The translations under genes were made by a program, and so were the position numbers. The notes under the pieces were generated by a model, which searched no databases, was not told the origin of the DNA, and saw only the letters and a program-made list of their open reading frames with translations. DNA of 38,401 nucleotides from Candidatus Altimarinota bacterium (GTDB lineage: Bacteria; Patescibacteriota; Gracilibacteria; BD1-5; JAGOOR01), in assembly GCA_023268615.1 (NCBI GenBank), contig JALQUC010000036.1, forward strand, positions 1 through 38,401, in the 5' to 3' direction. Below are positions 17,033-26,030 of the stretch, piece by piece; the stretch's first letter is position 1; each line of letters opens with the position of its first letter.

Positions 17033-19021
17033 ATGACACTCACGATAGACACTCAAAAATTAGCAGCACTTCGAACTGTCTTTCAGAGAGGCTCTGCCGC
17101 GCAGAGAAAATTTCATATTCAGACTTTTGGTTGTCAGATGAATCATGCTGATAGTGAGAAAATTCATATGCTTCTCACCCAGGCAGGATTGGCGAAGGTC
17201 GACACTTGGGAGGAGGCTGATATTGTTATTTTCAACACCTGTTCTGTCCGTCAGAAAGGCGAAGACAAGGTATTTGGCTTTGTTGAGGAAATAGACAGAC
17301 TTCGACAACAAACAGGTCGAGATATCAAAGTGGGGCTGACGGGTTGCATGACCCGAAAAACCGGACTCAATAAGAAGTATTATGACTATCAGGGGAGGAA
17401 GAATACCACGAAGATTGAACTCCTTAATTTAGACCAAGAGAAAAAAGAAAAGAGAAAAGAGAAAAAAGCAGGAATTTCTTTATTTAATTCTGATGATGAA
17501 CTCTTCAATCGTGTTGATACTATTGATTTTGTCGTGCGCATCGAGGAAATAGGAGCTCTCACGACGCTACTCTCGATCATGTATGGTGAGGATATAGGTC
17601 AAGATGACGCCTTTCAGTCCTATCTCCGTGTTCGTCAGGAACGAGATGCTTCTCGGAGTGCGAATATCATTATTCAGACGGGTTGTGATAACTATTGTAC
17701 CTTTTGTATCGTCCCATATACCCGTGGGCATGAGGTTTCTCGGCCAATTGACGACATTGTTGGCGAAGTTGTCGAAAGTGTCCTTCAACATGGGACCCGA
17801 GAGGTGACTTTACTTGGTCAGAATGTGAATAGTTACGGCAAAGAAACTCGCAAAAATCTCTGGAACGCAGGGGAGCTGACTTGGGTAACCTCCTTTGCAA
17901 AGGAGGTGTCTGAGCAAAGCGAAGACGGAGGATTTTTCACACACAATCATATTCCATACCGTGACGATTTAAAATTAAAAGCACAAGAGCTTAGAAAAAA
18001 TATGACTTGACCCGAAAAAAGTATCTGGTATCAAGTTTTAAGAAAAGATAAACTTTCTGGATATCGATTTTTACGACAAAAACCACTCCTCGAGTATATA
18101 GTCGATTTTTATTGTGATGAGCTCAAAATTGTCATTGAAATTGACGGTGATTCACATGATTTTCAGCAAGATTATGACGAAACTAGAACCAAAGAATTTT
18201 CAAAATATTGAATTTCTGTCTTGAGATTTACAAATAATGAAGTATTAAGAAATATTGATTGAGTATATCAGAAACTTGTTGAATTTATTAGATTAAATCC
18301 TCAGTCTCGTTCCTCGACAGCTCCTTTACAAAGGAGCTCTGTAACACCATTCCGTGAACTCCTGGAAAAAATAAATGAGGTCCCAGGACTTGATAGAATC
18401 AGATTTACTTCGTCCAATCCCCACGATATGACACGGGATATTCTCGATGCTCATTTTGATCTCGAGAAGTGCTGTCCCTACCTGCATTTTGCCCTCCAAT
18501 CTGGTGATAATGATTTACTCAAGAAAATGAATAGGAAACATTCGTATGACGACTTCCGGCTTCAGGTAGAGTATCTGCGTTCTCGCGATCCACTATTTGG
18601 TATATCGACAGATATTATTGTAGGATTTCCCGGGGAGACAGAGGAACAATTTGAAAATACTGTCAGGGCTTTTCGGGAATGTGAATTTGATTTTGCCTAT
18701 ATCGCTCGCTATTCTCCGCGGAAACAGACCTACGCTGCTCGGATGCCATGACAAGTACCTGCTGATGTGAAGGCAAAACGATGGGACAGATTGAATTCTC
18801 TCATGTATGACATTATTCAACAGAGGAATCAGCTCATGATAGGTCGCGAAGAAGTCATCATGGTCTCAAAAATTGATCAAGAAGATGGGGCTATTTCTGG
18901 TCGCACTCGGAATTTCAAAGAGGTATTCCTCCCAAAAAATGATACAATACAGTTGTGAGATTTGATTCCTGTGAAAATAATAGGGTTGGATAGGTGGGTA
19001 CTACAAGGCAGAGTCTTGTAA
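17033..19021 (+). CDS. miaB: MiaB-type tRNA methylthiotransferase with an inserted DUF559 domain
   Basis: One frame of 662 residues with five UGA codons; MiaB is normally about 440-500. Segments: UPF0004 domain with three cluster cysteines (QTFGCQMNHADSEK, NTCSVRQKGEDK, LTGCMTRK); radical SAM CxxxCxxC (GCDNYCTFCIVPYTRGHEVS); LLGQNVNSYG; then an insertion of about 150 residues; then MiaB resumes with TPFRELLEKINEVPGLDRIR, HFALQSGDNDLLKKMNRKHS, GISTDIIVGFPGETEEQFEN, YSPRKQTYAARMPG and a short TRAM-like end. It would add methylthio to i6A37 of tRNA. A Lys-rich stretch (EKKEKRKEKKAG) in the first half is also unusual. Removing the insertion restores the frame exactly. Whether the enzyme works with the insert is unknown. 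Confidence 0.93.
17890..18340 (+). mobile_element. DUF559 nuclease-like element with terminal inverted repeats, inserted in-frame in miaB
   Basis: The insert is bounded by GTAAC direct repeats (17885-17889 and 18341-18345). Its ends are about 45-bp inverted repeats, each opening with its own palindrome: ACCTCCTTTGCAAAGGAGGT (17888-17907) and AGCTCCTTTACAAAGGAGCT (18319-18338). Both lead inward to a GAGGATTT box. Between them is a DUF559 (PF04480) domain: LKAQELRKNMTGPEKSIWYQ, GYRFLRQKPLLEYIVDFYCD, KIVIEIDGDSHDFQQDYDE, VLRFTNNEVLRNI. This is a PD-(D/E)xK-like, Vsr-related nuclease fold. Three UGA codons are decoded as Gly. Composition (TTT, AAA, TTA) is more AT-rich than miaB around it. The 451-bp element plus the 5-bp duplication is 456 bp, 152 codons, so miaB stays open. 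Confidence 0.85.
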
Positions 19022-19050
19022 GACAAAAGACAAAGTTCAAAATACAAAAT
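19022..19050 (+). repeat. A-rich interspersed repeat between miaB and the nucleotidyltransferase
   Basis: GACAAAAGACAAAGTTC and AAAATACAAAAT match the repeat at 32218-32245 (reverse orientation) in nearly every position and resemble 5929-5955. It overlaps the first base or two of the next ATG. Confidence 0.6.
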
Positions 19051-19699
19051 GATGAAACACTTTTTCCCTTTTCGACATCGTCTCACACTTCGTCTGCTGG
19101 AGTTATTTCCACAGATTCTTCTCATAGCCCTCTGTAATTCTCGTGCTATGGGTGAGGCGGATGAAAATTCTGACATTGATCTCTTTATCATCGCCAAAAA
19201 AGGGAATCTCTGGACTGTGCGGTTTATTGTGACCATTCTTACTTCTATACTTGGCGTGCGTAGGAGAAATACTCATGGTCTGCAGAAATGAACCCCTGAG
19301 TATATCAAGAGAACGAAAGATAGATTTTGCCTCTCATTTTTTATCACAGAAGAGTCTATGAATTTCGAGAGTATTCGTTTGCAACCAAATGACCCCTATC
19401 TTGATCGGTGGATTTATACTCTCATTCCGCTCATAAATAAAAATGCCACTTATGAGCATTTTATGGAGGCTAATTGAGTTGAACCAACCCAGACCTGGAC
19501 AAATCCCACCTGGAAGTTATTTTTTATCAGGCTGGGCAATATTTTTGGATTTTTTTCTCTTTTTGAATCCGTCGTTAAGAAAGTTTGGCTTCCGAAAACA
19601 TTAAAAACTTACGAGACTCTCCGAAAACCATGGTGAGTCGTTATTTCAGATAGTATGCTCAAATTTCATGATCAGGATGTGAGGAAAAATTTTCTTTAA
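19049..19699 (+). CDS. Nucleotidyltransferase-domain protein
   Basis: This 216-residue protein has three UGA codons. Residues about 25-55 (LIALCNSRAMGEADENSDID, LFIIAKKG) match the minimal nucleotidyltransferase motif: a Ser-rich turn, then DxD (DID) for metal binding, as in Pol-beta-type NTases. After it comes a hydrophobic segment (TVRFIVTILTSILGV) and a C-terminal region with KLFFIRLGNIFGFFSLFESV. Its size and the single NTase core suggest an MNT-like protein or an enzyme transferring a nucleotide to another molecule. No HEPN partner is adjacent, so a toxin-antitoxin role is not supported. The start could be at either of two tandem ATG codons. Confidence 0.72.
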
Positions 19700-19703
19700 C
19701 TGT

Positions 19704-20618
19704 CTATTTTCTGTATTTACCTAAGAAATCTTTTAAAGATAAAACAGTTTCTTCATTTTTATTTTGAATGCACAATATAACAACCCATTCGCTTCACTGT
19801 TTCTGCATTCTAATATTATAAAAACCTTCTTTACAAGAATCTTTGTTAAAATGTGGGCATGATTGACATACACTGTCCAGGAACATTTTCTCTATTTTCT
19901 TTATAATCATTTTACCAATACCAGGGAAGAGATAAGTTCCTCGAGAGCTAGATGTTCCAGGTTCTCTTTTTATGGATAATAACTCTCAACTATATAATTC
20001 AATTAATCTTTGTATACCATTTGCAGAGGCTTCTTTTTCATTTAGATTATCTAAAACTCTCATTTCTGCTCAGCTTTCAACTGCAAAGCGGAATACATGC
20101 ATAATTCGCTCTATATCTGCCTCTTCTGATAAAACGGAATTTATTCTCACTTTGACGCCAGCATCTATTAAGAATCTAATATTTTCTTGCGATCTATCAA
20201 TTTGTTCTTGAGCCCAGACTTTACTAACTTTTCTCGACATTATATTCATTAATTCTTCTGGAGCTAATGTATGGAGTGAAAAATTCACTGCATCAATGCC
20301 ACTTACTGCCATATCTTCTCTTATTTTTGTTCAAAATTGACCATTTGTTGTTATTTTTGCTACAAATCAAGATGCCTTTAAACCTGAAATTATTTGAGGA
20401 GTCTGGGGATTCAACGTTGGTTCTCAGCCCGTCAGGTGAACTTCTTCTATTCCACAGTTTTTCCTTAGTTCCTCCAGGTTTCCCTGTAGTTCCTCATCCC
20501 AAAAAATAGGCGATGCAACTAAATCTCATTCGTTATGACAAAATTCACAAGACCAGCTACAAGGCTCAAATACTTTTAATCGTACAGATCCTACGGAATT
20601 TACATCTCAGAATTCCAT
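19704..20618 (-). CDS. MoaA-like radical SAM protein
   Basis: Eight UGA codons give 304 residues. The cluster motif is CSWSCEFCHNEG (CxxxCxxC with MoaA-like HNEG), followed by HLTG[UGA]EPTLNPQ, the GGEP motif that binds SAM. FSLHTLAPEELMNIMSRKVS and NIRFLIDAGVKVRINSVLS belong to the TIM barrel. A C-terminal CQSCPHFNKDSC plus a later Cys (VVILCIQN) may hold an auxiliary cluster, as in MoaA or SPASM/twitch proteins. The substrate is unknown. ATG 20616-20618 overlaps the end of the CYTH gene by 19 bases, so the two are coupled. It ends TAG, 4 bases from the convergent nucleotidyltransferase gene. Confidence 0.85.
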
Positions 20619-21178
20619 ATTTTAGGTGGATTTTGGAAAGAAACAACAGGTATTTTTATAAATACCTCTCTTGGTATACCAAGTTCTTTTTCATATATAA
20701 CTTCTGAACCTCAAAATATTCCTTCGTCCCATTCCAATCATAATTCTGATACTATTTTACGGACATTTCTTTCGGTGGGTCATTCAATCTCAATATATGG
20801 ATTTAGTCATGGCCATGTATCTATACAGACTTCTATATCACCATTAACCCAAATTTCTCTCGTATTCTCCTGAAAAGCAGTATTAATAAGACCAGTTTTC
20901 TGAAGTATTTCAGATGCTCATTCAAAGCTATTAACTTGTATTTCTATTTCTTCTACACCTTTGATACTGTCTTCATGTATACATTTATAAGTCATTGTTA
21001 CTTTTCATTGTTCTGCTCGGACTCGGAACCATTCATTTTTTTCAGTTTGTAAAAAATGAAATGTCTTTCTTTGAGATAAAAATTCCTTTTTTTCACAGAG
21101 AAAGCCCAAGAGAGAAAGTTTTTTTACAAACGCTTCTTTGTCTATCTTTATAAATTTAATTTCATACTCATGTTGCAT
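20600..21178 (-). CDS. CYTH-domain protein (CyaB / thiamine-triphosphatase-like)
   Basis: Reading six UGA codons as Gly gives a 192-residue protein invisible under the standard code. It opens with the CYTH signature ExExK (HEYEIKF). Alternating charged strands of the triphosphate tunnel follow: EWFRVRAEQGKVTMTYKCIH, VEEIEIQVNSFEGASEIL, NTREIWVNGDIEVCIDTWPG, LNPYIEIEGPTERNVRKIVS. This is the full CYTH layout (charged ExE, RxR, K, ExE, D strands). CYTH enzymes act on triphosphates such as ThTP or tripolyphosphate; some are class IV adenylyl cyclases. The substrate here is not predictable. It lies between a dTMP-kinase-like and a radical SAM gene in one operon. Confidence 0.85.
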
Positions 21179-21191
21179 ATATTAAATTTTA

Positions 21192-21746
21192 TTATTTTCA
21201 CAAAAACTGCAATGCTCTTATTAATGTCTCTTCTGGTTCTAATTTTGTATTGTCAATCAATAAATCTGTTCCTCGTTTTATAAATCAGCCTTGAGTTCTA
21301 GTAAACAAATCTTCATTTGTTTCAAATTGCGTCCTTACGGGTCTTCCAGATAATCTACTTATAATAGAATTTCTTTCTGCGATTAGCAGAATTTCTACCT
21401 TCTCTCTTATACTTTGTTCTAATTGTATCGCTTCTTCAGTGTTGAGAAATCATTCCATAGCTTCATGATGTACTATGGTTGAACCAATAAGCCTATCACA
21501 AACAACCATTTTTCATTCTCTACGCATTTTATTTATTTTTTCTATATCTTCTCGGCAGGCTTCTAGATAAAATTTAAACCTATCTGATACAGGTACTCAA
21601 ACACGATCAAACACCGCTCTTTCTTTTGCTGTTCTAGTTCCGGGGGTTTTGTAGTATTCCCCTTTTATTTCATGCGCAAGTCATTTTGCCAGTGTCGTTT
21701 TTCATACACCATCTATTCATTCTATTATGATAAGAGAGGTATTCAT
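21192..21746 (-). CDS. Thymidylate-kinase-like P-loop kinase
   Basis: This 184-residue protein carries eight UGA codons. The Walker A is IE[UGA]IDGV[UGA]KTTLAKGLA, so two of its three glycines are UGA-encoded (21717-21719 and 21702-21704). Next come EYYKTPGTRTAKERAVFDRV (substrate-site region), FYLEACREDIEKI, MVVCDRLIGSTIVHHEAMEG (the DR-x-x-x-S motif of dTMP kinases) and VEILLIAERNSIISRLSGRP (lid). Overall length and motif order follow thymidylate kinase, but the P-loop IDGVGKTT rather than xDGaGKsT and the altered EPG box suggest a paralogue or other nucleoside-monophosphate kinase. It starts 4 bases after the Gre-like gene. Confidence 0.85.
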
Positions 21747-21750
21747 GTTT

Positions 21751-22206
21751 TTATTTTCATTCAGGAGGCACAATCATCATCTCTTGCTTATTGAATGTTA
21801 TGACATCAAAAAAGTTTTTCCCAAAAATTAACATTCCTAAAGGTGATTCATGGGAAATGCCGTTACTTAATTCTAAGTAGTTACCTACTCAGGTCATTTG
21901 ATAATATGCAATTTCTTCTGTGTCCATATTTTCTAGTCCAAATCTGGTCATCAAACCTATTTTATCCTGATCTGTTTCTGCTTCTTGCAGAATAGCACTT
22001 GCTCGGTTTCTGGTCAATTCTCTCAATAATGTTGTATCTACTTTGGCTGCATCTAATAATACATCGCGAGGCGCATTATCATGCCAAGTTTCACTTGATT
22101 GAGAAAGTGCGTCCCGCATATCAGATGATCTTCTTTGCTGTCTTGATAGTAAAACAGAGAGTTTTTTTTCCAGTGCTTCAAATTCCTGAGGTGTTACAAG
22201 TCACAT
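21751..22206 (-). CDS. GreA/GreB-like protein
   Basis: With three UGA codons (the second codon included) the product is 151 residues, close to GreA length (about 158). The N-terminal half is a charged helical hairpin (TPQEFEALEKKLSVLLSRQQ ... NAPRDVLLDAAKVDTTLLRE). The C-terminal half has GVGNYLELSNGISHESPLGM and LIFGKNFFDVITFN, recalling the Gre/Rnk FKBP-like end (isxxSPlGxALlGkxvGD.v). Gre factors rescue backtracked RNA polymerase through acidic residues at the hairpin tip; HDNAPRD is a possible tip but is weakly conserved. A divergent Gre-fold paralogue is the safest call. It leads a four-gene operon. Confidence 0.6.
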
Positions 22207-22220
22207 ATGTATAACAGATT

Positions 22221-22246
22221 ATTTTATTATTGTATAATAATAAAAT
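22221..22246. repeat. AT palindrome between gyrA and the Gre-like operon
   Basis: ATTTTATTATT, GTAT, AATAATAAAAT: a perfect inverted repeat with 11-bp arms. It lies in the 55-bp gap ahead of the Gre-like gene and could be a weak terminator for gyrA, an operator, or both. A TATACA/TATAAT-like box overlaps its centre. Confidence 0.6.
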
Positions 22247-24916: not shown

Positions 24917-25273
24917 CTACCAGTAGAATCTTCTTCTATTCATATAATAATCTTCAAGAGTACCAGGTGCAGGCGGTGTGTGTTTGACGCTGCGCTTTGG
25001 TTCTTCTGGCTTTTGTACAGGTGTGACGGGCGGTATTGTATCAGGAGATTTTTTGGAGATTTCTCGGATAATTCTTCTCTCACTTGCTGTGAGCTCACCG
25101 GTGAAAATGTTTTTTATTAATGTATGAGGTTCAGCACAGCCGTGAGCAGAGAGGATGTCTATAACTCTCTCAGGAGTTCTGCCTGTATTATTTTGGTCAA
25201 TAGCATGTGCCCGGATAGCTTCTTTCGTCGTATGGATTCCTTGGTGTCGTTTCGAATCAAATGATGATTTCAT
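24917..25273 (-). CDS. Unknown 118-residue protein, paralogue of the gene upstream
   Basis: No family is recognised and no UGA is used. The N-terminus MKSSFDSKRHQGIHTTKEAI closely resembles MKSSYESAEHRAIHTIKEEV of the gene just upstream (25317-26030). Both also share a later ELTxSERxxxRxI-type segment (GELTASERRIIREI against RELSGSERWKVRNI). The C-terminal part is Pro-rich (TIPPVTPVQKPEEPKRSVKH) and ends YYMNRRRFYW before TAG. It is soluble, basic and short. A palindrome sits 5 bases ahead of its ATG, as in the paralogue. It looks like a truncated tandem duplicate whose C-terminal half was replaced. Confidence 0.7.
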   Translation of the reverse strand: MKSSFDSKRHQGIHTTKEAIRAHAIDQNNTGRTPERVIDILSAHGCAEPHTLIKNIFTGELTASERRIIREISKKSPDTIPPVTPVQKPEEPKRSVKHTPPAPGTLEDYYMNRRRFYW

Positions 25274-25316: not shown

Positions 25317-26030
25317 TTATTTTTGTCAATCATTGAGCTCGAGATACTTTTTTCTCTTCAATTGTTTCCTTCTTATTATTGTTCTCAAAATACTTCGTTC
25401 CCGTGGCTTTTCCTCTATAAATTGGAGATCTTTTTGTGACCATTTGTATTTCTTTCAGTTCTGTCACTCAATAGCAGTTGCAAGCCTTGCTTCAGTGAAG
25501 TAGTTCCTTATTGCTGCTTCAGCTGTTTCTCCTTTTATTTCTCTGTCATGAGGAGACCCAACGAGGAGAGATCTCCAGAGTGTGATTCCTCATATGCTTG
25601 CAAAAAATTCCGGTCCAGATTTTCCAGGCTTTTCAACAATTTCTATATTTCATAGCTGACCGAGCCAGTCTTTTATAGCTTCGAGGGTGTAGAGGGGTTT
25701 ATGATTTTGTTCTTCTCATGATTCTGTGTTTCAATTTGATGTTCTTACTCTTTTCAATAGTCGTCGTATTTTTCCTTGTAGTTTTAGTTCTCTTTTTTCA
25801 TCACGCGTGTTGCCAAGAGCTATATTTCGTACTTTCCATCGCTCAGATCCAGAGAGCTCTCTTGTTATAATCCTTTCCACAGTAGCTCATAGAGTACTAT
25901 TATCACCAATTATTTCATTGAGTCTGCGACCAATTTTACCACTTCTGAGGTATTCAAGAGCTTCCGTGTGTACTTCTTCTTTTATTGTATGAATTGCTCT
26001 ATGTTCTGCCGATTCGTAGGACGATTTCAT
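25317..26030 (-). CDS. Unknown 237-residue protein of a local paralogous family
   Basis: Eight UGA codons must be read as Gly to keep this frame open. The N-terminal 75 residues are paralogous to the 118-residue gene downstream. The rest is charged and helical: LEAIKDWLGQLGNIEIVEKP then GKSGPEFFASIGGITLWRSL, KGETAEAAIRNYFTEARLAT, and a Lys/Arg-rich end. I see no catalytic motif, signal peptide or membrane helix. The basic C-terminus (RTIIRRKQLKRKKYLELND) may bind nucleic acid. A palindrome similar to the paralogue's lies just before the ATG, suggesting common control. Confidence 0.68.

Follow-up and report, generated by a model that had tools for sequence, protein, structure and literature searches.

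A candidate nucleotide-analogue cassette combining radical SAM, CYTH, kinase and Gre-like genes from a small bacterium in which UGA encodes glycine

What might a Gre-like transcription factor, a nucleotide kinase, a triphosphate-tunnel enzyme and a radical SAM enzyme do together when they are encoded side by side? The question is raised by positions 19704-22206 on the minus strand of the window, which is the entire 38,401-nucleotide contig C11 (JALQUC010000036.1) from a Candidatus Altimarinota bacterium genome of 966 kb (92% complete). An earlier note on this DNA had placed four such genes here and proposed that they form one unit acting on a nucleotide or triphosphate. Coordinates, reading frames and translations given below for the cassette refer to the minus strand of the window read under code 25, in which UGA encodes Gly. 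All four open reading frames were open under this code at the positions expected, and are transcribed in the order Gre-like gene (22206-21751), kinase (21746-21192), CYTH (21178-20600) and radical SAM enzyme (20618-19704). The first two genes are separated by 4 bases and the next pair by 13 bases, while the CYTH and radical SAM genes overlap by 19 bases. These gaps, the identities of the genes and their UGA counts (3, 8, 6 and 8, respectively) were exactly as described earlier. The cassette lies between gyrA, which is on the same strand 55 bases upstream of the Gre-like gene, and a converging nucleotidyltransferase-like gene. We consider the chances even that the four genes constitute a nucleotide-analogue cassette, with the CYTH protein and a dedicated Gre factor serving in processing or self-protection.

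This reading draws on the recurrence of the set. Only species representatives were searched, in a sample of genomes. A search for the radical SAM enzyme in 380 genomes of the phylum gave many weak matches to radical SAM proteins, and three matches from other families were clear orthologues at 31-35% identity. Each of these had a CYTH and a kinase gene within ~3 kb; a Gre-like gene was present at two of them, and a remnant of the Gre C-terminal domain at the third (L036). Within 1.5 kb of these orthologues we found CYTH at 3/3, a kinase at 3/3 and Gre at 2/3, compared to 0/26 for CYTH, kinase and Gre at control loci of other radical SAM families from the same search. Single-sequence scans (P0001) of viral and genome contigs gave no matches, and tblastn of phages and plasmids returned mostly MoaA or unrelated radical SAM proteins. 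Scans with a four-member profile (A1) yielded the loci described here, from which a larger profile (A4) was built. Twelve patescibacterial loci were obtained, namely the window, L035, L036, L037, L044, L090, L096, L212, L213, L214, L215 and L216 (L039 is the same locus as L035, and L110 the same as L213). CYTH was present at all twelve, a Gre-like gene at nine (one being the remnant) and a P-loop kinase at eight. Gene order and strand varied at nearly every locus, indicating that the linkage has outlived rearrangement. The genes therefore do neighbour one another in distant relatives, which removes the objection that they might be adjacent in none, bears out the proposal of one functional unit and lends support to a pathway on a nucleotide or triphosphate. 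The radical SAM gene itself was sporadic, being found in 1/288 genomes of the class to which the window belongs and in 2/374 and 5/295 genomes of two other classes, and some copies were broken, as expected for an accessory trait.

Among genome contigs the profile also detected 149 related stretches, and we retained 80 of them. These came mostly from Streptomyces, other actinomycetes and Thermoactinomycetaceae, and also from Streptococcus. CYTH adjoined the radical SAM gene, either before or after it, in 77/80 of these loci, and the two were joined in a single open frame at L064 (7947-9602, +), L088 (7965-9656, +) and L116 (7728-9656, +), in Thermoactinomyces and Actinopolyspora. The core of the family is this radical SAM-CYTH pair. 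A literature search found no description of CYTH together with radical SAM, in keeping with the earlier remark that no system with this set is known. On a phage contig (L118, with a portal gene; PHROG 2e-67) a kinase, a radical SAM and a Gre-like gene stand in a row, and the Gre-kinase pair occurs alone on two more viral-labelled contigs. Since such contigs hold Gre-kinase alone and the wider family is CYTH-radical SAM, the cassette in the window joins these two modules. The four-gene unit proposed earlier stands; that proposal had overlooked the radical SAM-CYTH core, the partial set on a phage and a possible role for Gre. A quick tree of the radical SAM proteins, which is weak because its branches are long and its support is from SH-aLRT only, placed the Saccharibacteria loci L037 and L090 inside an actinobacterial clade, which excluded Streptococcus, the phage, the window and the remaining Patescibacteria. 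The presence of Gre required 5 changes on this long-branched tree, suggesting that Gre may have joined more than once; repeated assembly of the cassette fits this weak tree.

Two loci outside the Patescibacteria place such a radical SAM gene in a gene cluster. A Streptococcus operon (L058 768-7068, +) contains an XRE/Rgg-like regulator, the radical SAM and CYTH genes, a class II aminoacyl-tRNA synthetase-like gene and a pair of ATP-grasp ligases, a make-up that resembles an aminoacyl-nucleoside natural-product cluster. On a Streptomyces albidoflavus plasmid (L198 5932-9381, +), near cas3, a related radical SAM enzyme that shares the CxxC-x5-CxEGF...RL...C signature is followed by a dTMP-kinase-like gene, a hypothetical gene, a hydrolase of STM4013 type (nucleotide-pyrophosphatase/phosphodiesterase/sulfatase-like) and a NUDIX gene. 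Both neighbourhoods agree with a nucleotide-analogue cassette.

Could the genes simply have travelled together? The earlier note had taken their AT-rich make-up, against CTC-rich neighbours, as a sign of separate origin. The compositional contrast was evident, with a GC content of 0.31-0.36 in the cassette genes and 0.48 in gyrA, CTC at 6/72 and 62/73 of the Leu codons, and UGA at 25/60 and 4/56 of the Gly codons, respectively. However, UGA encodes conserved glycines in the kinase P-loop (GIDGVGKT) and in the GGEP motif of the radical SAM enzyme. These positions require Gly, as in code 25 of Gracilibacteria/SR1, and so rule out code 4, in which UGA is Trp. Recent import from a standard-code genome is likewise ruled out by the UGA-coded catalytic glycines, and those of the P-loop indicate long residence under code 25. 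Further accessory genes of the window share the AT-rich make-up, which is therefore a mark of accessory genes and not of recent import. A recent separate origin finds no support, and the distribution is that of an accessory set. Patchy spread and AT-rich composition would also be seen if mobile genes had co-travelled without any joint function. With CYTH beside the radical SAM gene in 12/12 and 77/80 loci, fused in one frame in some, and with neighbours that are reshuffled yet retained, we find such hitch-hiking scarcely credible.

The radical SAM enzyme (304 aa; Pfam Radical_SAM 1e-16) carries the core motif CxxxCxFCHNEG (C20, C24, C27), the motif HLTGGEPT and a C-terminal auxiliary-cluster motif, C251-x2-C254-x7-C262-x-E264-x2-Y267-x2-R270-x12-C283. 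In an alignment of 21 homologues 28 columns were invariant, and these included the three core cysteines, C251, C254, C262 and C283, as well as E264, Y267 and R270. C251, C254 and C283 align with C257, C260 and C274 of E. coli MoaA, while R13, R187 and R270 align with its R17, R189 and R262; these MoaA residues hold the auxiliary cluster and GTP. C262 and E264 fall in an insertion relative to MoaA. The best whole-length fold match to the AlphaFold2 model (predicted local distance difference test, pLDDT, 88.9) was MoaA, and the best solved relatives by profile were MoaA (9e-22) followed by AbmM (8wm2, 4e-20), whose chain shows FCHNEG and a CxxC-x5-CxE stretch. Going by its two cysteine motifs, the protein is predicted to belong to the MoaA/AbmM-like radical SAM enzymes with an auxiliary Fe-S domain. 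These nearest relatives, MoaA acting on GTP and AbmM on a nucleotide sugar, together with the retained auxiliary cysteines, argue for nucleotide chemistry. Curated MoaA models were all missed by >140 bits (the highest score was 96 bits, the cut-off being 325). We rejected molybdenum cofactor synthesis because the score was so far under the cut-off and no MoaC was found in the 92% complete genome.

The kinase (184 aa) is a predicted dTMP-kinase-like P-loop protein (Pfam Thymidylate_kin 8e-11; PF02223, 42.3 bits against a cut-off of 27) with an intact P-loop, but it missed the dTMP kinase equivalog (41.8 against 83 bits). The Gln of the AYQ motif of dTMP kinase, a thymine-site residue, is replaced by His (H94) in all six aligned kinases, so base specificity has probably changed. 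A search with the kinase against phages gave no match. The genome of the window (G000) also holds a second kinase copy, 37% identical, at ~14.2-14.9 kb of contig C3 (L004 9178-9858, -), which stands alone and adjoins a short-chain dehydrogenase/reductase gene, a gene of the DIT1/PvcA isocyanide synthase family and a quinone-reductase-like gene; these may belong to a further small-molecule cluster.

Radical SAM and kinase together recall the prokaryotic viperins, and an anti-phage role would have the radical SAM enzyme turn the kinase product into a chain-terminating nucleoside triphosphate directed against phage RNA polymerases, with the Gre-like factor clearing the host polymerase. PADLOC pVip models matched 21/21 of the radical SAM proteins and the VakA and PDC-M51B models matched 6/6 of the aligned kinases; a literature search on PDC-M51 found nothing. 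A patchy, decaying distribution and the cas3 gene near the S. albidoflavus relative would also suit defence. However, the pVip match is unspecific, since E. coli MoaA scores higher (4.5e-19) than the cassette enzyme (5.6e-17), which reached 50.6 bits with the NCBIfam viperin model against a cut-off of 180. Viperin membership was rejected on these two grounds, and we conclude from the model scores that the enzyme is neither MoaA nor viperin. Solved viperins were also far weaker by profile than MoaA and AbmM, and a phage itself carries kinase, radical SAM and Gre. Taken together, these results make viperin-type defence rather improbable.

The third enzyme, the CYTH protein (192 aa; Pfam CYTH 3e-12, above cut-off), has the residues predicted for a triphosphate tunnel. 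In an alignment of 18 sequences E4, R52, R54, D120 and E130 were invariant and K65, R107 and E132 nearly so, which accounts for both the acidic metal-binding and the basic triphosphate-binding side chains. Its best relatives in the PDB by profile were the archaeal triphosphate tunnel metalloenzyme Saci_0718 (4e-22), followed by CyaB (4e-12), and it scored 54.0 bits with the class IV adenylate cyclase (CyaB) model, under the cut-off of 57.95. How near this score comes to the cut-off bears on an alternative modelled on the MoaA-MoaC pair. A nucleoside triphosphate would be rearranged by the radical SAM enzyme, and CYTH, working as a triphosphatase or a class IV cyclase, would release pyrophosphate to leave a cyclic nucleotide that serves as cofactor or signal; the kinase would recycle it, the Gre-like factor would be a transcriptional read-out or target, and no toxicity would be involved. 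MoaA is the nearest full-length fold, the pair is conserved and sometimes fused, and the genome has no MoaC. On the other side, the nearest solved relative of CYTH is Saci_0718 and not CyaB, patchy and decayed copies are ill-suited to a housekeeping cofactor, and no dependent enzyme was seen to recur nearby. We regard this alternative as unlikely.

The first gene of the cassette encodes a protein of 151 aa with the layout of a Gre-type secondary-channel factor of RNA polymerase, a coiled-coil hairpin with the tip QSSETWHDN followed by a GreA/GreB C-terminal domain. The Pfam GreA_GreB match was weak (0.003); profile comparison (GreA 5e-11, Gfh1 3e-10) and predicted fold (AlphaFold2 pLDDT 84.5; template modelling score 0.78-0.83 to GreA and to polymerase-bound Gfh1) make the assignment firm. 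The tip reads ETWHDN where GreA has GDLxEN, and SRYD at some loci; the site of GreA Asp41 is Thr and that of Glu44 is Asp, with a Glu one residue earlier. A profile of the cassette Gre proteins scored cassette members at 190-220 bits and ordinary GreA at <=58, which identifies a dedicated paralogue distinct from ordinary GreA. At L125 and L197 (G322 contig C19, 2486-2911) a Gre-like gene related to those of the cassette is interrupted by three in-frame TAG codons; no cassette flanks it in the stretch read, and it is probably a remnant. At L217 (5396-8701, +), in another genome, a P-loop kinase comes after an HDN-type Gre gene, and the genes next in line are, by sequence reading only, GHMP-kinase-like, a methyltransferase and a HAM1/ITPase-like nucleoside triphosphate pyrophosphatase; these may form a nucleotide cassette of a second kind that has a Gre of its own.

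In such company the set might instead serve housekeeping, repairing or modifying damaged nucleotides or stalled transcripts with no biosynthetic purpose. Gre, kinase and triphosphate enzymes suit repair, and at L217 the Gre-kinase pair lies three genes ahead of the HAM1-like pyrophosphatase. An accessory pathway is a better fit to a presence in a single genome of 288 in the class and to the clusters seen in Streptococcus and Streptomyces, and we consider housekeeping very improbable.

How would a nucleotide-analogue cassette work? The kinase would supply or activate a nucleotide, whose ribose or base the AbmM/MoaA-like enzyme would rewrite with the help of its auxiliary Fe-S cluster. CYTH would act on the triphosphate of substrate or product, whether to process it or to hold a toxic triphosphate low, and the Gre-like factor would enter the RNA polymerase of the producer and clear or exclude the analogue that blocks transcription. 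What the analysis shows is the gene set, its retention through rearrangement, the folds and the conserved catalytic features of the radical SAM enzyme, CYTH and the kinase P-loop. A nucleotide substrate, a product that acts on polymerases as an analogue, and self-protection by CYTH and Gre are what we infer; the cassette probably makes a modified nucleotide, and its own Gre perhaps protects the polymerase of the maker. The linkage of CYTH, Gre and kinase to the radical SAM gene at patescibacterial loci, absent from the controls, argues for this reading. A protective role for Gre fits the findings that GreA abolishes the arrest caused by a single incorporated oxazinomycin (PMC6821320) and that TFIIS excises ribonucleoside analogues (PMC3499576). 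Several observations weigh against it. The tip residues make cleavage by the Gre-like factor doubtful, and it could act as an inhibitor like Gfh1 instead; the kinase is not a single family, other P-loop types being found at L037/L090 and L214; kinase and Gre are rare nearby in the wider, mostly actinobacterial loci; and the varying spacing and orientation leave co-regulation unsupported across loci. More tentatively, and with some doubt, a new class of system could be envisaged, in which a diverged Gre clears an analogue from the RNA polymerase of its producer, so that transcript proofreading becomes self-immunity; such a system would have been put together on more than one occasion in minimal bacteria and acquired by a phage too.

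If this holds, radical SAM nucleotide chemistry would be tied to a built-in RNA polymerase factor. In the TFIIS study its authors offered the speculation that attack by ribonucleoside analogues drove the evolution of transcript proofreading factors in bacteria (PMC3499576), and a Gre paralogue in a probable analogue cassette would make this idea directly testable. The radical SAM-CYTH pair, common in actinomycetes, would become a candidate for the discovery of new nucleoside compounds, and near-minimal Patescibacteria might possess a chemical weapon or defence.

Several features surround the cassette. An AT-only perfect inverted repeat, TTTTATTATT-GTAT-AATAATAAAA (22222..22245, no strand assigned), lies within the 55 bases that separate gyrA from the Gre-like gene and was read from the sequence as a possible operator or weak terminator/promoter region; in a promoter scan of the region promoter-like matches were no commoner than in shuffles. 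The convergent gene (19049-19699, +) encodes a polymerase-beta-type nucleotidyltransferase with weak HalB and MntA matches and ends 4 bases from the end of the radical SAM gene. Beyond it, miaB (17033-19021, +) has an in-frame DUF559 endonuclease-like insertion inside its radical SAM region (residues 313-419, Pfam 5.9e-34). Between gyrA and recA, two small genes (24917-25273 and 25317-26030, both -) begin alike, with MKSSxxSxxHxxIHTxKE, and appear to be a duplication that has diverged.

Is the cassette, then, a variant of something known? The closest parallel of proven chemistry is thmABC of Photorhabdus, in which the radical SAM enzyme ThmA, the nucleoside kinase ThmB and the nucleoside triphosphatase ThmC make 4'-thiothymidine and thmC alone confers resistance (PMC12691670). 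The match is by functional class of three genes, radical SAM enzyme, nucleotide or nucleoside kinase and triphosphate enzyme, ThmA being likened by description. By this analogy, the kinase and radical SAM enzyme in the window would make a modified nucleotide and CYTH would handle its triphosphate. The two systems differ in that the window has CYTH and a dTMP-kinase-like protein whereas ThmB is an AbmG-like nucleoside kinase, that thm is reported in Enterobacterales and Vibrio, and that only the cassette includes a Gre-like gene. AbmM swaps sulfur for oxygen in albomycin synthesis, with its own Fe-S cluster as the sulfur donor (PMC12691670). It shares with the cassette enzyme the FCHNEG core and the extra Cys-x-Glu, and its CxxC-x5-CxE-x5-RL stretch resembles the C-terminal motif of that enzyme, but the likeness is local (single-sequence E 5e-7) and MoaA is nearer over the whole length; the literature searched mentions no CYTH or Gre in the albomycin cluster. 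To MoaA, the GTP 3',8-cyclase, the enzyme is similar in its whole-length fold, in the three auxiliary-cluster cysteines and in retaining the equivalents of Arg17, Arg189 and Arg262, and differs in the extra invariant Cys262 and Glu264 and in its partner, which is CYTH in a genome without MoaC. The pVip systems likewise place a radical SAM gene beside a nucleotide-kinase-like gene, and the PADLOC pVip and VakA models match; unlike pVip, the cassette enzyme carries auxiliary-cluster cysteines, which viperin is not known to have. Finally, the cassette Gre has the fold and polymerase-binding domain layout of GreA/GreB and Gfh1, and is set apart from them by its ETWHDN or SRYD tip in place of GDLxEN and by being encoded inside the cassette itself.

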